In this document: positions 2,552 to 39,314 of the stretch, one piece after another
How the letters are laid out: each line of letters begins with the position of its first letter
Position numbering within the stretch: position 1 is the stretch's first letter
From: Polychytrium aggregatum
Taxonomy: Eukaryota > Chytridiomycota > Chytridiomycetes > Polychytriales
Assembly (NCBI RefSeq): GCF_025602895.1
Contig: NW_026516206.1
Location: 620,001 to 684,000 of the forward strand
Reading direction: 5' to 3'
DNA length: 64,000 nucleotides
Translations under genes and position numbers: made by a program
Notes under the pieces: generated by a model
Told to the model about the DNA's origin: nothing
The model's input: the letters and a program-made list of their open reading frames with translations, nothing else
Databases searched by the model: none

Positions 2552-3475
2552 GGCGTGTGTTGGTGTTGCTGGATGAAAGGGAGAAAGGCCACCTCGGGAA
2601 TGGAAGAGGGGGCAGCGACCAGAGGCGAATGGAAGGTCCGAGTGTCCTTCGAAAGCGAGCGAGTCTTGACAAATTACGGGGGTCGCGAGTGCGATATATA
2701 GCTGAAACTGATCTCTCGGCGACTTCTTTGAGGACCACCGCAGCCGGCCAGCGCATCGAGCGAGCGAGCCTGATAGCAGGAGCGCCCCGGCGGGATCGGC
2801 GCCGTCTCTGGGTCGGGGCTGGATTGGGTGCATTGGACCAGACTGCAGCAAATCAGATATTCCGCTGCGGCCCACTTGAAGGGGCAGCAACGTCATTTCC
2901 ACGCAATCTCCCAATCGGCATCCCAGTGACGAGGTCAGTCCCCCGCCTCATGCGACATTGCAGCTTCGAATGCCCACAGTCTGCTGCTTCCGAAAACGAA
3001 TATGCCGTCATGGACTGGCGGGAGCAGCTGTAGTGGTAGCTGATATAATTTACACCCATGCCGGCGCAGTATGTGATGGCATGCGTCCAATGAAGCCACA
3101 TGCAATTCAACAGATTACCTCCGAGTGAAGACCACCGGTCACTCTCCGGTCTCCACAATCGACCTGCACACTGGTCTCGGAGTGCCAGCGGTGAATGGTG
3201 CTCGTGGACACACTGAATATGGAGGCAATATTCCTAAGGCTGTGGATGACAGGAGCACCGCATCACAGAATGGTCATGGACAGCGCGATGGTATTGGGTA
3301 ACAAACTATTGTGTTCTGAACCAAGCGAAATGTCCTCTCTGTTTATCGCCGGAGCTGTATTTGGATGATGCAGAAGCAAGGTCAAACGGCCAAGGAACTG
3401 TCTGAATTGCGATGGACAATCGCCTGATCTTGAGACTCCACTGAAATCAGCGGGCGCAATCACGCGCGAGCACAG
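2552..3475. other. Intergenic: NHE 5' flank and ACS 3' flank
   Basis: Upstream region of the exchanger and downstream region of acetyl-CoA synthetase, both on the minus strand. Open frames here are short and show no family motifs. No repeat or RNA gene was recognised. Confidence 0.5.
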
Positions 3476-6400
3476 TTACAACTTGGCCGAGAGCACAGAG
3501 CCTTTGGGCTGACGGACAGCGTCCTTGATTTCTTGCAAGACAGATTCGTCGTCGATGGTAGCGGGGACATCATATGGGGATCCGTTGTAGATGGCGCGGA
3601 GGATGCGTCGCAGGATCTTACCCGAGCGAGTCTTTGGGAGGCGATGGACAATGAAGACACGATCGAAGCAGGCAAATGGCCCGATCTGTTTGCGAATGGC
3701 TGCAACGAGCTGGTTGATGATTTCATTGTTCGAGTGCACCGTTCCGTGCTTCAGGACCACAAACTGGCGGACATGATAGTCAGCGGGAGGTCAGCGGCAA
3801 GAGACACACCCAGCTGGCCGAGGTCATGAACATTGCTGATGACAGCTGGCCACGCCATAGCCATCGCCACACCACAGCCATCGCCACACTTTCTGCAAGG
3901 TGCATGCACGCCAAGCGCTTACGCCGATCGGGATCTCGCCCTTGAGCTTGTCTTGGCCACCGATGACAGCGCACTCGGCCACATCGTGGTGGGCAGCCAC
4001 CACTTCTTCCATTGAGCCAGTCGACAATCGGTGTCCGGCCGTGTTGATGATGTCGTCGGTGCGCGACATGATGTTGAGGTAGCTGGAAACGGGGATCGCC
4101 CAGTCAGCTACTGTCTCCGCATCCGCACGAACACACAGCGCTGCCAAGTTGGAAGGGATGCAGGCATGTCTACTCTGGACTTACCCATTGGAGCTGAGGT
4201 ATCCAGCGTCCGTCAGGTCAAAGTAGCCCGGGAACTTGGAAAAGTAGCTTTTGAGATAACCCGAATGGTTCTTCCACAGTGTGGGGAAGCAGCCAGGAGG
4301 CAGAGGGAGTTTGAGGGCGAGAGTGCCCATGACATCAGGCTCGGTGGCCTCCTGCCACTCAACGTGGTTGTGGCTGTCGTCATGGTCCACCTCATGCTTG
4401 TGCTTGCCGCTGGTAGAGATCAGAACCTTGACGTCGTATCCGGGAGTAGGCGGCCCCGCGCTGCCCAGCTGAGTGGGGGTGCTCTTGGATGGGTCGTGGA
4501 AGGCGCAGGCAACGGTGATAGGCCAGCCTGTTTCGGTTTGCCAGTAGTTGTCGCTGCCATTCGCAGGGGGGGGGTAGACAGTTAGCCGCAGTCCCAAAAC
4601 CCCAGCGTCGATGCTAGCTCGTCCTGCTGGCAACATGGGATCTTGGTGCTGCATACTCACCGAATGGGCACCTTGAGCAACGCTTGGAAATGCTGGAGCG
4701 TATCGGGATCACTGCGTTCGCCAGCAAGATACATGTTTCTCAAGCTTGAGGTGTTGTATGTGCGCGTCAGCTCGCCGTGAGGATCCTCTCGCTGCAATGT
4801 AGCCGGATTGGAGAGAGCAAATGGGTTACATCAAGCGATCGACCCTTTGACACGAGTCATCCTCAGATAGGGTGACGGCTGTCGGCATCGCTGAGCCGTT
4901 ACGCACTGCCATTCGAGAGGGATGCATTTGCCAGCCCGAGCAACCCAAGCAGAACCCACCTTGATGGCGCGAGCCGCCGTTGGGGCAGTGAACAGGACCT
5001 TGACTCGGTAGTCCTGAATGATCCTCCAGTACGCCCCGGCATCCGGTGTGCCCACGGGCTTGCCCTCGTACATGACCGTGGTGCATCCATTGAGAAGTGG
5101 GCCGTAGACAATGAAGCTGTGGCCAAGAACCCATCTGTGTTCGTGGGCCGGCGCATTTGGTCAGTCAAGTGGGCCCAGAGCTCGGCAACGCGGGATCAGA
5201 GGCAAAGTCAAGCATTCTCCAGTGGTCTGTGTGGATTGTGACCATCGCTGCAATGGGATCGGAGAGGAATGTCGAGCGACACCGACCCAGGCAGATACCA
5301 AGATTGAGAAGGAGAGGGAAACGAGCGCGAACCCACAACTTACCCGATATCGCTAGAGGTGAACATGGTCTCTCCCGGGCCCACGCCAAAGATGTTGTTC
5401 ATGGACCAAATCAGAGCCACTGCATAACCGCCGTTATCGCGGACCACGCCCTGTGGGGCCGAAAGCGGATGACCGAGGCGGGTGAGCAGATGAGCCGTGC
5501 AACGTATAAACGTTCTTCTCAAAGTATGATAGTGATGGCCGGCCACCCGATCGGAACCCCGTGGACCACCATGCCGTCGACTCACCTTGGGAACGCCGGT
5601 GCTGCCCGAGGTGTAGAGGAGATAGAGAGGATCTCCAGACTTGACAACAACGCACTCGGGCTTCAAATTGGCTCGTCTGGAGCGCTTGACTTCGTCCTCC
5701 CAGTCGTACTCGCCTCGGTTGGCATCGAGTCGGACACGACACTGGGGGCGCTGCAAGCAGATCCTGATCGGCACGACATGCTTGCTGAGGCTCAGAGCCT
5801 CGTCGAGCAAGGGCCTGCATGAAGAGCGTCGGAGGTGAGCCTCTGCCGATGCCCCCTCCCCGCGAGAGTTTCTCTCGGAGACCAGACAGACCAAGGCCAA
5901 CGAGGCAAGCCGCCAGAGAAAGGCGGCGATCCACGAGGACGCCAGCACTTACTTGTACGGAATCACACGAGACGGCTCGATGCCACACGAAGCGAACAGA
6001 ACGACGCTGGGATTGCAGTCGTCGATGCGCTTGGCCCTGCAATGAAGGAGTGTGCGGCATGTTGGTTGACCGGAGGCGATCATGCCAAGAATTGCCTACC
6101 CCGCACAACAGCCGTGCCTCCCTCCATCCCAAGCCGGCCGCACAGATAATACTTACAGCTCCTTCGCAGCAAAGCCACCGAAAACGACGCTGTGGACGGC
6201 GCCGAGTCGGGCACAGGCAAGCATGGCCATGGCCGCTTCCGGAACCATGGGCATATAAATGAGGACGGTATCGCCCTTCTTGACGCCGTGCTGGGAGAGC
6301 ACGCCGGCGAGCACCTGGACATGCTCCAGCAGCTGGGCGTAGGTGAACTGCAGCTTGCTGTTGGTCACGGGCGAGTCGTAGACCAGCGCCGTTCGAGAGC

Positions 6401-21617: not shown

Positions 21618-23754
21618 TTACTCGTCATCATCCGCAGCGGCGTCCTCATCATCGTCGTCACCGGACACTTCTTCGTTCTCCCGCTCCAGCTTGGCCATGA
21701 GCTGAGCCAGCTCGAGGTCATCGTTCTCGCTGATGGCTCTTGGCTGCGGACAAAAGATCGGTTGAGCGGTTAACACCGAGTCACTCGATCAGCGCTGAGC
21801 GACAGGTCGACATCGAGCCCTTGACATTCCAGCAGGCGCACGGTGCTCGCAGGGATCGGAGCGTCGTCAGGTGCGTTGAAAACTCAGAGCCTCACCTTTG
21901 TCTTGACAACCAGTCCTCCGTTGTTCTTCTTGATGACCTCCTCAATCTTGACGATGGCCTTCTGGAGAAGCTCGATGCCCAGGCTCTTGTCGAGGGCGTT
22001 GGTGTTCATGACGTATAGCGGCGGGGCGACGAGCTTGATCTGGAAGGAGGAATTGATCAAGAGAGTGGAGTACGAGAATGAGTGTGAGGGAGATTCATTC
22101 GCTTCGGTTGAGACGGGGTTCCCAAGATAAACGGCGAGATCGACAGGCGGCTGCAAAAGGGAGGATTGTCTCGGGTGTAGCCTCGAGCCCTTACCTTGAT
22201 GGGAATATCCGGGGTGGACAAGGCCTCACCGGCACTGAGGGCAGCCTTGATGGCATCGATGCCATCGTAGCCAAAGCATGTGCACTCGATATCTGCGCAG
22301 TGAAGCGGCCAGAAGTAGACGGCGAGATGGTGAGACAGCGAGACGGTGAGAAGGCGGGTAGCAGTGGCACCTCAATGCAGTTGCCTTGGGACTGGTTTGC
22401 GCGGCAGTGCTAGCTTACCGGCTCGGATTTTGACGGGTTGAGGGGTCAGGCGGCGGCGGATGTTGCTCTCGAGTTCTCTTCGGACCTCGGGTTCAAGGTT
22501 GAACTCGTCAAAGATCTTTTCGGGCTCGCTGAGGGTCGGGGAGGTGGGAAGGGCCGGGTCGTGGAGATGGTTAGGCCATGTCAAACAAACACCAAGCTGT
22601 CTCGATCGGCTGAAGCATCACGCACCGGCTCACTATCCGCAGCCACAATCCGTCTCGTATGCCCGCTAAAGAATAAAAGTGCTGAAACAGATGCCGCGTG
22701 ATGGACTCACTTGATGGCAACCTTGAAAGCCTCGTAGGCATGGCCATACTTTCGGTAGAGGGGCCAGCCAATCTGAACGTACAGATCCTCGAGCGAAATA
22801 TTCAGCTTCTCGGCAACGTGTCGCATGATGCTGTGGACCTGCGGTATTCAACGGAAAGTCGAGATCCACAGCAAGGCCAACAAACCCACATCCAGGAGGC
22901 AAATCAAAGGACCGCCGCCGGACATTGTGGTCGCAGGAGTGTGTCAGTCACGTCGGCAGCATATTCACGCGAAGATCCACATCCCAAGAGAGGGCAAGGC
23001 GGCAGATACGGGCCGCCCTCAATGGCGACACCGACCACACGGACGGACACAGATCGATGCCGGGATCGAGCATCACGATCTACAGTTCCCGTGCAATCGC
23101 TGTCCATCCAGATCGCATCGGTGCCACAATATGCATGGTTGGTGGCGAGCCGACAAGAGTCGTCCGAGAGCCGGTGGACGAGCGTCCCCCAATGAGGGGA
23201 AGGAGCCCCCCCCCTAAACGCAGCATTCCCTCGAGTGGCCTTCTCCTTCGCCTCCGCTTTGGCCTAACCCCACACGAGATCCTGACGACGCTTACCGCCT
23301 TGGACTTGTTGAATTTCTCCTCGCACTTTTGGATATCTTCGGCCGAGACTCTGCGTTTTGACAAGTCAATGTAGCCCTTCTCCTTGTCGACTCTGAGGAC
23401 GACGACGACTTCGGAGCGTCCGACACGGATGAGCTTCTGGATCGATCGGATGCGGCGACGGGAGAGCTCCGAGAGCAGAATCATGCCCTCGATGTTGTTG
23501 TACTCGAGGAGATGGACGTAGGCTCCCATGTCGGCAATCTGGCGAACGTTGACCATGACCAGATCGTCGGCCTCGGGGTACTTGTTCTCGTACATGCGGC
23601 AGAGGAGGCGGGACTGCTGTTCCGAGAGAGCGGCGGCGGCGGCGGGGGTGCTGCCCTGGGCCATGGCCAAGCGGACGACCTCGGGATCGACCTGCTCGAC
23701 GCCTCCCAGCGGGACGTTGGCCTCGGTGTCTGAAACCTCGCTGTCAGAGTGCAT
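21618..23754 (-). CDS. SUI2: Translation initiation factor eIF2 subunit alpha
   Basis: Regulatory subunit of eIF2; phosphorylation blocks eIF2B and lowers initiation. Exons 23296-23754, 22711-22838, 22419-22528, 22195-22292, 21896-22039, 21618-21743, phases consistent; about 354 aa. Seen: S1 domain ([25 protein letters not shown]), phosphosite loop [12 protein letters not shown] (the Ser of SELS, residue 98 here, equals classical Ser51), [72 protein letters not shown], and an acidic tail ending DDDE. The N-terminus is about 47 residues longer than usual before the S1 domain; an internal ATG (M31) gives a shorter form. Confidence 0.95.
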
Positions 23755-24437
23755 GGTTGCGGGAGAGATGGTGGGAGCGAGCGAGAATGTGCGCGAACTG
23801 GGGCGGACGAAAGGCAAGATCGACGACACAGCCAGCGAGCAGTCAGCTTGCTCGAAAAAAGGGCGGCTGTGGCAAAGCGACGCAGCGGCCTGAGAAAAAA
23901 AAGTGTGTCGGCGGTCACGTGTGCAGGCGCGGACGAGGCTGCAGCCCTCCCCGTTTCGGCAGGCGGACACAGCCAGAGCGCCAACCCGATCCGAGAAATG
24001 GAAGCAGCACCGCCAGGACACTCCTGCACTCTGTCTCCCCCCGGATTTGTCTGCGCCGCTCTGCCCGATGGGACGCAGCGACGGATTGAATGGCCAAAAA
24101 GGCGGCTCTATTCCATCCACTACCGACAGCAACAACGTCAAGAAACCTGGGTGTGGTCCGCTTTCTCTGAGAGGAGCTGTACTATAGGGCTTGAGGGGAC
24201 AGGTCTCTGTTTTCTTGATGTATGGTGCCAAGGATCCAAATACGATTCCAAATAAAGACAAAAAAAAGAGGGAGCAAATGAAAAGAGGGAAGGGCAGCGC
24301 GAAGGAGGAGGGCAAATCACAAAAGAAGCTAAAGTGAATAAAGGAGAAAGAAAAAAAAGGAGGGGGGAGGGGAAATCTTTGCCTGCTCGATTCTTAGTAT
24401 GAAGTAGATAGATTCAAATTCCTGATTGGGTGATGAT
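23755..24437. other. Intergenic between G-alpha and eIF2-alpha
   Basis: 3' flank of G-alpha and promoter of eIF2-alpha (both minus). The part nearest G-alpha (24240-24375) is strongly purine-rich on the plus strand (A/G runs), so pyrimidine-rich in the transcript. Confidence 0.5.
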
Positions 24438-26425
24438 TTACATCAAGCCGCAGTCTCTCAAGTTCGTTTGGATGATGATATCGTTGACGGCCGCCATGAC
24501 GAACTTGATCTGTGTTGTATCCGTGGCACAAGTGAAGTGTGTGTAGATCTGCTTCTGGTCCGACTGGTTGAGCGAGACGAATCGGTTGAGGATGTACTCG
24601 CAGGCAGAGTCGTAGTCGTCACCACCTGTTGAACAGAGTCGCACGGGGCGGGGCAAGTTAGATCATGCAGAGACAAATCGTCGTCGATCGGAGGCGGTCT
24701 AGACATCCACGTGGTGTTGTGGCTGTCCGGAGCCGGGTCGAGCGAGGGTGCCATCGCTCGACAAGTCGCGCCCGCCAAGAACTGCGTGGGGACTGGACAC
24801 CGACCCGTGTAGTCAGGGAAGTATTTGCCCATGGGGGATCGCGGCAGCTTCTCCTTGAACAGATCGATCTTGTTCAAGAAGAGAATGATGGAGGTCTTGA
24901 CGAACCATCGGCTGTTGCAGATCGAGTCGAAGAGGGTGAGAGCTTCTTGCATGCGGTTCTGGTGTTAGAGGGGGGAGTTAGAGGGAGGGGGAGTTAGAGG
25001 CGCCGATGGTGCAGAAGGTGCTTGTGTCTGACTAGCAGGGAGATGCGCCTGGACACAAGCAGCCATCTCGACAACTGTGAGCATCGACGGCACAGGAAAC
25101 GGTCGCATTGGGGAATCAATGGATTGTATACCCACCACAGTCTCGTCCTCAACAAGCACTTGGTCATATTCGCTGATGGCCACCAGGAAGACAATCGCTG
25201 TGACGTTCTCGAAGCAGTGGATCCACTTCTTGCGCTCGGATCGCTGACCGCCGACATCGAACATGCGGTAGATGAGATCACCGATGTGGAACGACGACTC
25301 GGTGATACCAGTGGTCTTTACACGCGAACGCAGGACATCCTGATCTGTTGGCAGGTAGTCTGCCGCGGCAATGCGATCGATCGAATCAAAGTAGCTGCGA
25401 GGGTAAAGAGGGACGAGGAACGCGGTTAGTACGGTCTGGAGGTCGCAGCTCCAGGCGATGACAGGCAAGGAGCGATTCGCCGGCCAGCACATCATCAACT
25501 TGTATCCGGTGCAAAAAAGCAGCCGAGGTGTATCACAAGTAGACCGACGCCAATCCGAATGGCGGCAGTGCTGATCCTTGCCACGGCGGCACAAGATCGA
25601 CACTGGGGACGCGCGCATTACAGCCAGCAGCGAGGATGCCTACTATTTCGAAGAATCGTTGAGCTGATACTCTCTTGATCGAGCAAAGCACGCCTGGACG
25701 CCCTCGTCGACCCACAGAGCCTTGACTGCCGCAGCGACCTCGGGAGGGAAGACATCGGCCTCGATCTGATTTGGGAGCTCCATGATGACGGCGTGATGCT
25801 TGTCGTTATCGGCCTTGCCAAGGGCGATGCCCATGTTCTGCATGGCCTCGAGGATGACCCGCATGGACTGGACTGTGTTCGAGAAAATGATTTCTTTGAA
25901 GGCCTCGCGCTCATCGTTGCTGTAGCCGGTGTCGTGGATGAGCTTCATTTGTTTCAGGATAGTTGACTTGCCCGATTCACCGGCGCCTATTACGACGTGC
26001 GTGCGTGCGGGCAAGGCTGAGTGAGACACATGCCAAAAGCAACAAACACGAGCAGCGGCCTCATCACGTCGACGCTGGCTGCCAGCAGACTGGCAAGGGA
26101 CGGGAAATGCCACGCGCCTGGATATCCAGAATCACAGAGCGAGCCACAGACAGCGGATAGACAGCCACACGAGGGACAATAGAAATGGAATGGGAGCGCG
26201 GACCGAGAGGGTGCTTTTGCCGCGAAGGACATGCGATAGAGAGCGACCGCAGAGCTGGATCTGGAGGCACGCTCGAGGGCAGGTGCCAAACGACCGAGGG
26301 TGCTCACCTAGCAGAAGCATCTTGACTTCATTTCGTTGATTCAGCTTTTCTTTCTTGAGAGCATTGTCGATTTCGTCATTTTTTCGACGCTGCTCCTGGT
26401 CTTCTGCACTCATACAGCAACCCAT
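24438..26425 (-). CDS. Heterotrimeric G-protein alpha subunit (Gi/o-like)
   Basis: GTPase that couples 7TM receptors to effectors. Exons 26308-26425, 25644-25986, 25136-25394, 24805-24958, 24438-24625 give 353 aa, the family length. N-terminal MGCC offers myristoylation (Gly2) and palmitoylation (Cys3/4). Nucleotide motifs: GAGESGKST (G1), [12 protein letters not shown] (switch I, with the cholera-toxin Arg), [12 protein letters not shown] (switch II), FLNKIDLF (G4), TCATDT (G5). The C-terminus is DCGLM; Cys at -4 is the pertussis-toxin position of the Gi/o class. The donor of exon 2 overlaps an apparent TAG (TA|GTAGGC) but splicing restores [11 protein letters not shown]. Of the type of fungal GPA subunits. 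Confidence 0.96.
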
Positions 26426-35257: not shown

Positions 35258-35721
35258 TCTCGGATGGGATCTATCTCGCCGGTCGATGGAGGCCGGCTGT
35301 CCTGTCTCGCGGGTCGATGAAGATTGGCCGGTGCAGGCCGGTTGGATCGCCAGGCAGATCGATCGCAACAGATGCAGCCAGGGCTCGTGCGCGGTGGCAC
35401 TATGAAAAAAGTTCTTGTTAATAAAATGAGCGAGAACGAAAAAACGCGCTCTCGGAGCCACCTCGGTTGGCGAGAAGAGCAATCTCTGGCGAGAGACCCC
35501 CGAGGGAAGGCGAGAAGCCTCTCGCCGTCACACACACACACACACACACACACTTTGCACAAGGGAGTCAAACACCTCCCATCGACCATCCCAAGAGGGA
35601 TGGCAACCCCGAAGTGGACTGCCCAGAATATGGGCGACCCGGCATCCACTGTCGAAATGCACAAGGAACAATATACTTACAGTCAATCCAGAAAGAAACG
35701 GGACAGATCCCATTTCGGGCT
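35258..35721. other. 3' flank of the Fanzor ORF / 5' flank of MED8
   Basis: Contains a (CA)n microsatellite and several hairpins close to the Fanzor stop. No protein-coding frame is supported. This is where a Fanzor guide RNA and one transposon end would be expected. Confidence 0.5.
35529..35553. repeat. (CA)n microsatellite
   Basis: About 12 CA dinucleotides, 170 bp beyond the Fanzor stop codon. Confidence 0.95.
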
Positions 35722-35739
35722 TCAGATATCTGAAACCCG
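35565..35739 (-). ncRNA. Candidate Fanzor omega/guide RNA region
   Basis: Immediately 3' of (and overlapping) the Fanzor stop. Visible structure: GGGAG...CTCCC (35565-35582), a perfect 7-bp hairpin CCATCCC-aaga-GGGATGG (35586-35603), and a 24-nt near-perfect palindrome around TTCAGATATCTGAA (35716-35739) with CGGG/CCCG flanks. In TnpB and Fanzor systems the guide RNA is transcribed from the 3' end of the nuclease gene into the transposon end; the placement fits, but transcription and processing are inference. Confidence 0.3.
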
Positions 35740-38292
35740 CTGACTGACTGTAGGCCCCAGTGAGCAAGCCGTGAAATTGTTTCCCGTCTTGGTTGGCAAT
35801 CTCTTTGTTTGGGTTGGTTTCGGGAGCACAGTCTTGAATACACCCGGCCGATCTCCTGTGGCGATGATCGACTGGCATACCGAGATCATGTTCCGTGAGG
35901 CATTGATGTCTCGATCCCACAGCGTATGACAGCTTGCACAGCTCCGTACATAATGTGGCTTCTCGATATCAAGATGCTCGACCTTCTCGAGTCGCTTGGC
36001 TTCCCGACAGTGTGAGAACACCTGGGATGTGTTGAACTCGTTCACCGAGCACACATGGATCTTGGAGACGGATCGGTCTGGTGGTCGTCTCTGGTGGTGG
36101 TGGAACTGCTCGAAATACTTGGCAAACCTGAGTCTCCTGGGACTGGATGCATATCCCTTCCCTTGCTTCCAGGAGGCATTCCCAAAGGCAATCACAATAT
36201 CGGTCTCCCTTGGTGCCTGGTCGATGACTTGCTTGCACATCTCGTGGACGGTGCGCTGTCTCTTGCTGTGGAGATCGAGTCGCTTGAATCGCCGTCGCCG
36301 AGTCAGGCTGAAGTACAGATGTTTCTCCAGCATGTCTCCATCGAACACATGGCGAATGTATTGCAGGAAGGAAACCACCCCAGGGTTCTTGGGACTCGGT
36401 GTGGTGCTCATCCATTTCTGCAGATCAAGGATCTTGTGGGTGCTCTGTATCCACTTGGTCGCCTGGCTGGTGCCACATCGATGCTGGTACTCCTTGTTGG
36501 AGAACGACACGATCTTCTCGTTGGCGCGCTGTGCCTTGGTCACCTTGACACCGTCTTGCTCCTGGATGGATGGTTGACCGGGTGCTCGATTGACAGCGGT
36601 GAAGATCGATCCCACTCCAGGGTCGATCCCAATCCATGTGGTCCGAGAGTCGTCAATGGGACCGACCCTGGTCTGGATCTTCTTCTCGGGAGTGAGCTTG
36701 AGTGTCATGTCGTCCTTGTCTGTGGTTTCTGGCTTGGCATCAGGGTCCTTCTTCTCCAGGATCTTGTATCTGAGCGTGGTGATCGAGCACCCGACCCCAT
36801 CGGTGGTGATCTCGCAACCAAAGAGCTGCTTCCCCTTCTCCCTGGCACCAAAGAGTCTCGGATCCAGCTTGAAGTTGGTCTGCCAGAAGGTCTCTTGCTT
36901 TGTGGTGTCATTGACCTTGGTCTTCAGGTCGTCCCACTTGAGCCCAGTGCCAGTCTGCTATCCAAGGATCTCCCACAATGCTTTGGTGTCGAGCTTGATG
37001 TACTTGGCTCGGGCATCGCAGAGCGGGACCAAGGTGCACTGTGCTCGAGGGGCCTTGTGTCGCTTCTTGGTCTGGGCAAGCCGGTCGGTCAATCGCTTGA
37101 TCCGTTTCCTGTTGATGGTGATCTGCTTCTCCACCTCCTCGTGTTGGGTATGGAGTGTGTTGTATTTATCCGACTGCCTTCGTTCGATAGCGCGACACAT
37201 CTCCTCGTTCAGTCGCCCACGCTCTCCTTTCAGATCATCGGTCACCCTCGCGAGCCTGGGAATGATCATCTTCTGAAAGACCACCATGAAGAGGGCCTCC
37301 TTCAGGTGGGTCAGGCGAGAGACTTCACTGGCCAGAATTGGTACGACTTTGTACAGGTCCTGGTGGCTTTCGTACCGAAGCTCATACAACTGGTCGGCAT
37401 GGTGGGCGAAGGATTTCTTCAGATCACCGAGGAGTGTCTTGGAGAGGGGATTCTCCATCAGCTTCATGCAATCGTCGATGTGTGTATGCCGTTTGACATC
37501 CTTCGGAGCAATCAGGACCAGATTGCAGTATCGACGGAGGAGAGACCAATACCGATCGAGAACGTGTGTCTCGCAGTTGACTGCATAGGTCTTGACAGCC
37601 AAACCAAGGACCTGTGAGCCAGTGCCCTTTGGGAGGGACACTGGAGGCAGGATACACGTCTCACTCCATGTACTTCGATACATGTCATAGGTCTTGATGA
37701 TGTGCCTGTCATCTTCTGGGGTGTTCGTCCTGGCACCCACTGTTCCTGTCTGTACCATATTGAAGCACTTTCGAACAAACGCGGGTTCACTCGACGACAC
37801 AGTGGGGAGGGTGATGCCCTCGTCCAAGCACCGCCTGAGATGCAGCTCCAGGAGACGAGATGCTTCGTACTGCACTTGAGTCATGGCTCGGACAGTCTCC
37901 TCGATCTTGTCGTGCAAGGCATCGTTCTTGATGATGGCATCGAGGGTGCACTTGACGATCGAGTACTCGGCCTTGGCATACTCGTTGGGGCCACAGTCAG
38001 GCAAGGTAGAGCTCCAGAGTGGGTTCTTCTTGGTACACAATGAACTGTTGCTTCTGGCATGACCCACTTGCTTGCACGTGGCACATACAGGGACCTTGGG
38101 TGCTTGGCTGACCATTTCAGCGACCGAGGCAGGGCTGCTGTCGACTCTGGCTGTACACTTCTTGGTGAAGGGTTTGACATGGTTGGTCAGGCCACAGGCA
38201 CGACACGATTTGATGGTGAACTTCTTGGCCACAGGAGAGTCATTGGGTGATCCCGGGTCGGGATCGGGGGGTGTCTTTCGTTTGGGAGCCAT
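35722..38292 (-). pseudogene. Fanzor (eukaryotic TnpB-like RuvC nuclease), ORF interrupted by one TAG
   Basis: Related to TnpB/Cas12 RNA-guided DNA nucleases (OMEGA systems). One reading frame of 857 codons from ATG 38292 to TGA 35722, no introns, with a single in-frame TAG at 36958-36960 (codon 445). N-terminus: basic tail, two CX2CX4HX7C zinc knuckles (residues 30-46, 70-86), then a long helical recognition/wedge region ending YIKLDTKALWEILG. After the TAG: FGCEITTDGVGCSI (about residues 500-510). Then the RuvC domain: RuvC-I GIDPG (D557); RuvC-II-like VIAFGNASW (703-708) without the usual Glu; VNEFNTS (E752), where Fanzors carry an alternative Glu; zinc ribbon FSHC...RSCASC; RuvC-III LWDRDINASRN (D793/D795). 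Both sides of the TAG still match the family, so the lesion is young, read through, or an assembly error. No recombinase ORF adjoins. Confidence 0.88.
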
Positions 38293-39314
38293 CTGGCGAG
38301 AAAATAGCAGCGATGGCTGGTTCTTGTCAGGAACGGAGCTGGACTTTGGCACCAGACAGCTGATGGTAGTCGAACGGACGGTCGTAGGACGAAGGGGAGT
38401 GTATTCAATAGGCTAAGGGCAGGATACAAGAGGCAAGGTGAGGTGCTGGTTCTGAGGCCACAGCACCTCGTTTATATCTCTAAACGCCGTCCTTGTTCAC
38501 CGCAGATTTTTCTTCCACTACAAGGGAGATTAGTTATCTGCGACGGGGGGAAATTAGATCCGAACGTTTCCCTCGCCCGCCGGGAGGTTTCATGTCAGCG
38601 CCTTGCCCAACATTGCACATCAAGGAAACAGGACACGGGTTGGGGCGCCCATGAAACCATCCACCGGGCGTGGAAACGCGGTTCATGACAGTTCTGCCCT
38701 TGGGGAAGAAAAATTTTCCTCAAAACCAGCGCATTTTGGGCTGGCAGAGATGCTGTGCAGTGGCGTCCTTGATTCAGATCCAGAAACGCATCGCTCGCTC
38801 AATCAGTCGTGGGAAGACATCTTGTCAAGGTGAGTCTTGCCTGATAGCCAAACGATCATGTCATCTCGCTGACACACAGCCACGCTTGACTAGGTTTCCA
38901 ACCAGAGAGATTCAGATGGTGGTGGTTCTTGTCCGCAATCGGAGTGGAGCTTCCAACAATGATACAATTGGTCATTCCTCCACACCAATTGCCCACCACC
39001 ACCGTCAATCGGCTCACGACGATACCAAATGCCGTCAACCGACCATGGGCGGATTCCAACTTTTGCTGCGCCACATCCAACGTGACTTTCAGGTGACCGA
39101 GATGAGCAGCCGCGAGGGGGCCGGAAAAAATTGATAGTGTGGGTTGGCCCATGTCCCAAATCTGCTCGCCTCGCCTCTCGCCTCACTCCAACCCCCTCCC
39201 GCTTGCCCCGACATCGTCTTGCTGCTCGCCCAAGAGCCTTGCCGATAGGGCGCTTCTCTGCCATCTGCCTGGACCAGCGACCTGCAAGCCCAAGGACAGC
39301 CCCCACATTCCGCC
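38293..39314. other. 5' flank of Fanzor and upstream of CLEC16A
   Basis: About 1 kb without a supported CDS. Contains a 9-bp perfect stem (GAGGTGCTG/CAGCACCTC, 38440-38469), an inverted pair GGTTTCATG/CATGAAACC (38586-38594 and 38650-38658), and the divergent promoter region. One end of the Fanzor-bearing element probably lies here. Confidence 0.45.
38440..38469. repeat. 9-bp inverted repeat upstream of Fanzor
   Basis: GAGGTGCTG - 12-nt loop - CAGCACCTC, perfect stem, about 150 bp upstream of the Fanzor ATG. Possible operator, transcript hairpin or subterminal element. Confidence 0.6.

Follow-up and report, generated by a model that had tools for sequence, protein, structure and literature searches.

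Fanzors ride on many eukaryotic transposons. Among the closest described systems is Spu-1 of the chytrid Spizellomyces punctatus, a multi-copy terminal-repeat transposon that encodes the Fanzor1 protein SpuFz1 and is accompanied by gene-less ghosts. In the passages of Saito et al. (PMC10432273) that describe this fungus, 42 full or partial Fanzor loci are reported together with 134 ghosts, and the guide RNA of SpuFz1 is given as 88-90 nt, derived from the right end and reaching 14-15 nt into flanking DNA. Likewise, the Fanzor1 element CMe-1A of Cyanidioschyzon merolae occurs in about 150 copies, some of them with intact genes (Bao and Jurka 2013, PMC3627910). This element was called non-autonomous, was described without terminal repeats and was assigned to no superfamily. 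A third point of comparison is the CACTA/EnSpm superfamily; a passage of PMC12730594 gives CAC..GTG ends and 3-bp duplications as the EnSpm criteria for fungal transposons. The words EnSpm and CACTA do not occur in the main texts (supplements aside) of PMC3627910, PMC10432273 and PMC10711439, and, among the papers listed, the one naming both a Fanzor and EnSpm treats them, in the excerpt concerned, as separate elements of an alga. The literature compared does not name the CACTA superfamily for Fanzors; Jiang et al. 2023 could report such a link.

The locus described here lies in a 64,000-nucleotide stretch (the window) of the genome of Polychytrium aggregatum, a chytrid of the order Polychytriales. 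It is probably a decayed member of a Fanzor-encoding transposon family of CACTA/EnSpm type with high copy number, for which a cycle of mobilisation in trans and guide-RNA-directed repair is proposed below. Its features are collected in Table 1. Like Spu-1, the Polychytrium element is a multi-copy chytrid transposon with ghosts, a likeness that suggests, by analogy, the same working, and the catalytic residues of both Fanzors can be aligned. Yet Spu-1 measures about 2.1 kb and has repeats of 30-33 bp and presumed TA duplications, whereas the Polychytrium element measures 3.4-3.8 kb, displays short CACTAT ends and 3-bp duplications, and encodes a protein of about 856 aa. With CMe-1A it has in common a high copy number and some intact genes. 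It resembles CACTA/EnSpm elements in its CACTA ends, in its 3-bp duplications and in sharing its genome with a PF02992 element whose terminal bases match, but it differs from them in carrying a Fanzor and no recognised transposase. This genome amounts to a natural experiment in which a single host harbours two or more multi-copy Fanzor families, unbroken genes and clear-ended ghosts. The presence of a nearly identical transposase family makes mobilisation in trans testable, and the mosaic nature of the copies does the same for gene conversion between transposon copies driven by an RNA-guided nuclease.

Table 1. Features of the Polychytrium element in the window
Feature	Position	Strand	Basis or remark
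Whole CACTA-like transposon copy, 3,742 bp	35398..39139	minus	5' end 39139, 3' end 35398
Left target-site duplication CCA (element orientation)	39140..39142	minus	direct reading
Right target-site duplication CCA (element orientation)	35395..35397	minus	direct reading
Left terminal sequence CACTATCAATTTTTTCCGGC	39120..39139	minus	terminal 20-mer
Right terminal sequence, ends TTTTTTCATAGTG, reverse complement begins CACTATGAAAAAA	35398..35421	minus	terminal 24-mer
5' leader	38293..39119	minus	blast blocks
Fanzor coding frame	35722..38292	minus	856 codons plus stop, one interruption; PF07282 and SpuFz1 profile match
First CX2CX4HX7C zinc knuckle, residues 30-46	38155..38205	minus	motif reading; P0001 has the same
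Second CX2CX4HX7C zinc knuckle, residues 70-86	38035..38085	minus	C70, C73, H78 and C86 invariant in 10/10 rows
In-frame TAG, codon 445	36958..36960	minus	frame translation
RuvC-I GIDPG	36616..36630	minus	D557 (36622-36624) aligns with SpuFz1 D383
RuvC-II alternative glutamate E752 in VNEFNTS	36037..36039	minus	aligns with SpuFz1 E541
Zinc ribbon, residues 759-788	35929..36018	minus	first ligand is Phe759 in the window copy
RuvC-III D795 in DRDINASRN	35908..35910	minus	aligns with SpuFz1 D606
3' untranslated region, candidate omega-RNA scaffold	35398..35721	minus	RNA fold and conservation
(CA)12.5 microsatellite inside the 3' region	35529..35553	unstranded	25 bp in the window

Identity of the coding frame

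The frame runs from 38292 to 35722 and counts 857 codons including the final stop. An initial annotation made from the sequence alone had read it as a Fanzor nuclease frame in a chytrid-like genome, and both the Fanzor identity and the chytrid host are supported. GIDPG, VNEFNTS, the zinc ribbon and DRDINASRN were all found on the minus strand at the residue numbers it gave. That annotation mentioned neither the TAG, which leaves 444 codons upstream and 411 downstream, nor the transposon around the gene. The first cysteine of the ribbon is lost as well (FSHC in the window, against CSHC in 18 of the 19 fetched long-frame copies and SSHC in the remaining one). With a premature stop and a lost zinc ligand, the window copy is, as judged from its sequence, a dead Fanzor. 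The proposal that it would act as a programmable nuclease if expressed is therefore unfit for this copy; other copies have unbroken frames, and it is the family and its transposon that hold the interest.

Yoon et al. 2023 (PMC10711439), in the part that sets out Fanzor fingerprints, name two features: the DPG motif of RuvC-I and a glutamate that precedes the zinc finger by six residues. GIDPG was present in the window and in all 19 long-frame copies, and E752 is followed, six residues on, by ribbon position 759 (cysteine in 18/19 copies). The frame also matched the pattern D-X(125-275)-[TS][TS]-X-X-[C4 finger]-X(5-50)-RD with spacings of 197 and 5, the window retaining three of the four cysteines. 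The profile search that had been proposed gave a concordant picture. PF07282 scored above its curated cut-off on the read-through frame (E 1.1e-7) and on the downstream half (4e-8), and the NCBIfam models for TnpB and Cas12f returned weak ribbon matches, far below their cut-offs. A profile that combines the window protein with nine distant relatives (alignment A2) had a single strong match among solved structures, SpuFz1 (8GKH, 9CEU-9CEZ; E 6e-24), followed by LaTranC (E 7e-5). In that profile alignment D557, E752 and D795 fell, by hand count, on chain residues 777, 935 and 1000, which a constant offset of 394 turns into D383, E541 and D606. The catalytic residues of the window Fanzor map in this way onto the residues that coordinate metal in SpuFz1, according to the structural passages of Saito et al. 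2023 (PMC10432273). SpuFz1 as best match and the terminal-repeat element favour a tentative assignment to Fanzor1.

The weak ribbon scores in the TnpB and Cas12f models would also be expected of a TnpB or Cas12f-type protein derived from bacterial DNA or contamination. To this reading we give a negligible probability: the window protein has both DPG and the alternative glutamate, its best solved relative is SpuFz1, and its copies sit in long contigs of the fungal genome where several annotated proteins carry pieces of it. On these sequence grounds 35722-38292 is taken as a real Fanzor locus.

The tandem N-terminal knuckles, noted as unusual in the initial annotation, are real; the second was invariant throughout the ten aligned rows and P0001 carries both. 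The metagenomic relatives (P0001-P0003, P0008 and P0010-P0014, 25-37% identical in alignment A2) share the N-terminal CX2CX4HX7C knuckle with the window Fanzor, and their precomputed domains include PF07282 in 7/9 and PF26935 in 9/9. By this alignment, the N-terminal zinc knuckle is conserved among distant relatives. It may distinguish the Polychytrium Fanzor from SpuFz1, in whose N-terminus no knuckle was seen, in an alignment that is weak (10.8 bits, i-Evalue 1.2), starts at profile position 41 and is no proof of absence. No report joining a Fanzor with a zinc knuckle was met in the literature search. The profile search yielded no further homologues at E 1e-5, and 13 pattern matches considered as viral relatives were discarded, none of them being confirmed.

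Element boundaries and target site duplications

Homology ended within seven bases of 39139 and 35398 in 14 of the 20 relatives fetched with their flanks. Among the other six, L013, L019 and L020 lack part of the 5' end, L014 and L025 matched neither end, and L028 matched as far as 35541 in the filtered blast list, yet its ATAGTG end is present. The element is bounded by CACTAT...ATAGTG. Its left terminal 20-mer was found at 128 genome sites with up to two mismatches and its right terminal 24-mer at 117 sites with up to one mismatch, against none for the reversed control in either case. In some copies 366 bp of the 5' leader (38325-38690) are absent. The (CA)n tract is far longer in L029 (near 4650-4735) than in the window.

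Target site duplications were scored in 31 distinct insertions with pattern-matched ends, copies with other ends being left out (15 fetched loci plus 20 chosen terminus pairs, minus 4 repeats). An exact 3-bp duplication flanked 20/31 of them (0.48 expected), a 4-bp duplication flanked none, and the remaining 11 lacked a clean duplication. The flanks were biased as well: the base before the duplication (position -4) was A or C in 29/31 insertions, and the first duplicated base was T in 20/31 on the left and 25/31 on the right. A Fanzor needs a motif, the TAM, beside its target. A TAM could not be drawn from the A/C at -4 and the T that follows, the bias being inseparable from a transposase target preference, and it is as such a preference that we read it from the insertion sites.

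Copies in the Polychytrium aggregatum genome

The 411-residue half matched at least 102 stretches of the 64.7-Mb genome (101 of 1,614 candidates scored). Among the matches listed, 31 rows at 30 loci lay in frames of at least 850 codons with no stop in the match. These frames were measured from stop to stop and may lack a start codon; the usual one is missing from the long frames of L009, L011 and L013. At least two pairs of listed rows score identically and could be assembly duplicates. In alignment A1, 13 fetched copies were stop-free from the start region, and D557, E752 and D795 were invariant. A further 36 listed rows start after RuvC-I (query residue 139-159), and a stop occurs in the match in three of them.

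With the N-terminal half as query, at least 122 stretches were matched (95 of 404 candidates scored), and 21 of the listed rows, at 34-38% identity, belong to a second Fanzor family. P0001 matched at least 117 stretches (60 of 957 candidates scored), also at 34-38% identity, and its loci overlapping the N-terminal-half matches are those of the second family. The C-terminal match was stop-free in 48/60 scored loci of this query, in frames mostly near 809 codons. The second family is seen at C359, C415, C24:275228 and 57 other loci. At three loci the match to P0001 is uninterrupted, and these may represent a third family.

Pieces of the Fanzor also occur in annotated P. aggregatum proteins. P0004-P0007 contain pieces 90-94% identical to it and P0009 one of 58%; the domains found in the five are F-box, AMP-binding/reductase, RhoGEF-like and kinase, one protein being without a Pfam domain. 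In four of the five the Fanzor sequence breaks off at the same point, following NMIS; the GTATGC found there in the DNA is possibly a shared splice donor. These fusions are either exonisation or gene-model artefacts. The window itself holds ordinary host-gene pieces on the minus strand at 5340-5945, 23083-24315 and 24968-25618 (AMP-binding enzyme, S1-domain protein and G-alpha subunit).

CACTA assignment and a transposase partner

No transposase gene was found inside the Fanzor-type element, and none was noticed by eye near ten sampled termini without a listed Fanzor match (about 1.5 kb each, 6.5 kb at one). PF02992, which we take to be Transposase_21, the CACTA transposase family, gave 29 matches in the genome, 28 of them above cut-off when in-frame neighbours are counted. 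None of the 29 lay within 10 kb of a left terminus of the Fanzor element (100 of the 128 termini listed). For one PF02992 element both boundaries were placed in two copies, giving a length of 5,681 bp. The 9/9 left ends read agree over their first 30 bases, which begin CACTATGAAAAAA, and the right end of the element reads TTTTTTTCATCGTG. A CAT duplication flanks the copy in L058, the duplication not being clean in two other copies with both flanks. The start of this element and the reversed right end of the Fanzor element have 13 bases in common, a match that is partly an A-run and is confined to a single end of the Fanzor element.

The 3-bp duplications in 20/31 insertions and the terminal bases shared with the PF02992 element lead us to regard the Fanzor element as a CACTA/EnSpm passenger, and the CACTA assignment is supported by these sequence features. 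From the same data we infer its mobilisation in trans by the PF02992 transposase. The ends of the PF02992 copies were mostly 100% identical where compared, which points to recent activity of that element. Some 35 bp separate two of its 5,681-bp copies, which lie tail to tail (L058:2449-9001 and L059:1-4845).

In the cycle that we propose, the Fanzor family would have no transposase of its own and would be cut and pasted in trans by the PF02992 CACTA transposase with its matching terminal bases. The Fanzor produced by intact copies would bind a guide RNA that originates at the right end of both full copies and ghosts and takes its guide from flanking host DNA. The protein would then cut sites emptied of the element, and repair from another copy would restore the element there. 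Such repair, or ordinary excision-gap repair, would also give rise to internal-deletion copies and mosaics.

Constraint on the frame and the ends

Nucleotide diversity was calculated in the 12 full elements with both ends pattern-matched. Third codon positions (0.127 and 0.093) were about twice as variable as first and second positions (0.035-0.067). Element bases 101-400 were conserved (0.015-0.034), as were the last 132 bases, whose diversity of 0.029 is 3-4 times below that of third positions. Less conserved were the part of the 3' untranslated region ahead of the microsatellite (0.047) and the first 100 bases, the latter being as variable as third codon positions (0.126). This pattern indicates constraint on the coding frame and on much of both ends. 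For 19 long-frame copies, pairwise dN/dS (Nei-Gojobori) was 0.33 upstream of RuvC-I, 0.31 between RuvC-I and the deletion point, 0.20 between that point and RuvC-III, and 0.66 over the tail; several tails in this sample are shifted or longer, and L027 lacks the RuvC-III motif.

An alternative is that the Fanzor is a passenger without any role in element survival, the element being spread by a transposase that recognises its ends. Fanzor-less ghosts have spread, and so have deletion copies, the window copy is dead and yet present, and transposase binding alone could conserve the ends, all of which a pure passenger would allow. It would be harder put to explain the excess of third-position changes, dN/dS values of 0.2-0.33, the stop-free frames of at least 850 codons in 31 of the 102 listed rows (30 loci), and the persistence of the other Fanzor loci in a mostly open state (48/60 scored). 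We consider this alternative unlikely, though the most serious one, and prefer a Fanzor that contributes to the survival of its element through the proposed cycle.

At the right end, the 3' region (324 nt in the window copy) folded with a z of -3.6, and its last 132 nt with a z of -1.7, a modest gain over shuffles. The latter stretch displayed 96% mean identity among 21 distinct ends. No known RNA family reached its gathering score in the 3' region, and for covariation six copies were matched, while the 132-nt alignment is too invariant to bear on it. By analogy with SpuFz1, the right end may yield a guide RNA whose guide would be the flanking bases below 35398. The conserved ends may equally be transposase-binding sites.

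Deletion derivatives and ghosts

Short copies arose by internal deletion. L029 and L030 retain element bases 1-449 (23-449 in L030), 816-874 and about 2668-3742, and whole short copies measure about 1.6-1.7 kb by their end coordinates. The ten sampled termini comprised three plain short copies, two short copies with an insert of about 655 bp, four ghosts and one remnant. Three of the ghosts measure about 0.25-0.3 kb and one about 0.67 kb; they retain roughly the first 90-200 and the last 190-440 element bases. The remnant, a 28-bp terminus, adjoins a putative host pyrophosphatase gene (read by eye). In the short derivatives L051 and L052, a common stretch of about 655 bp replaces element bases 145-220.

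The short copies, with some 250 codons and without RuvC-I, might encode a separate, catalytically dead regulator, for which TnpB-derived repressors in bacteria offer a parallel. Indeed, 33 of the 36 listed short copies were stop-free in the matched part, and pairwise dN/dS was 0.36 in 12 of the 14 fetched (two being excluded by a motif filter). This value is close to the 0.345 obtained over the same region in 18 full copies, and 76 variant alleles were common to short and full copies. Alleles private to short copies (34) had an N:S of 21:13 (p 0.037) and private singletons one of 17:8 (p 0.23), which does not clearly show a constraint of their own. Moreover, the usual start codon was out of frame with the retained part in the frames inspected. 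A dedicated regulator appears improbable to us, and the short copies are preferably seen as deletion derivatives of the full element.

Mosaicism between copies

Recombination between dispersed copies was apparent in the 12 full elements, which offered 365 two-state informative sites. The four-gamete share of site pairs was 0.25 up to 25 bp, rose to 0.53 at 26-50 bp and reached 0.57-0.63 at larger distances. Pairs no more than 50 bp apart gave 0.364, against 0.578 (sd 0.011) after shuffling, and transversions alone gave the same four-combination pattern. Copies simulated without recombination at the same diversity yielded a mean of 374 informative sites and a share of 0.027 (maximum 0.091 in 15 runs); a star-tree simulation reached 0.31, but with 74 informative sites. 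As the observed share exceeds that of the non-recombining simulations, dispersed copies often exchange sequence. At the shortest distances, part of the linkage may come from clustered multi-base changes.

That the Fanzor causes this mosaicism is speculation, the pattern being known for one transposon family. Pushed further, Fanzor cuts and copy-templated repair would form the sexual system of the transposon: about a hundred CACTA copies would exchange stretches, linkage would be lost within about 50 bp, excised copies would be restored, and ghosts would be generated and serve as extra guides. We regard this extension as doubtful, less probable than a plain passenger though not as improbable as a short-copy regulator. 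The N-termini of L009-L028 differ from copy to copy in how they combine short alternative blocks, NTPKCRFYN and NSSLCTKKN among them, the combinations being shuffled.
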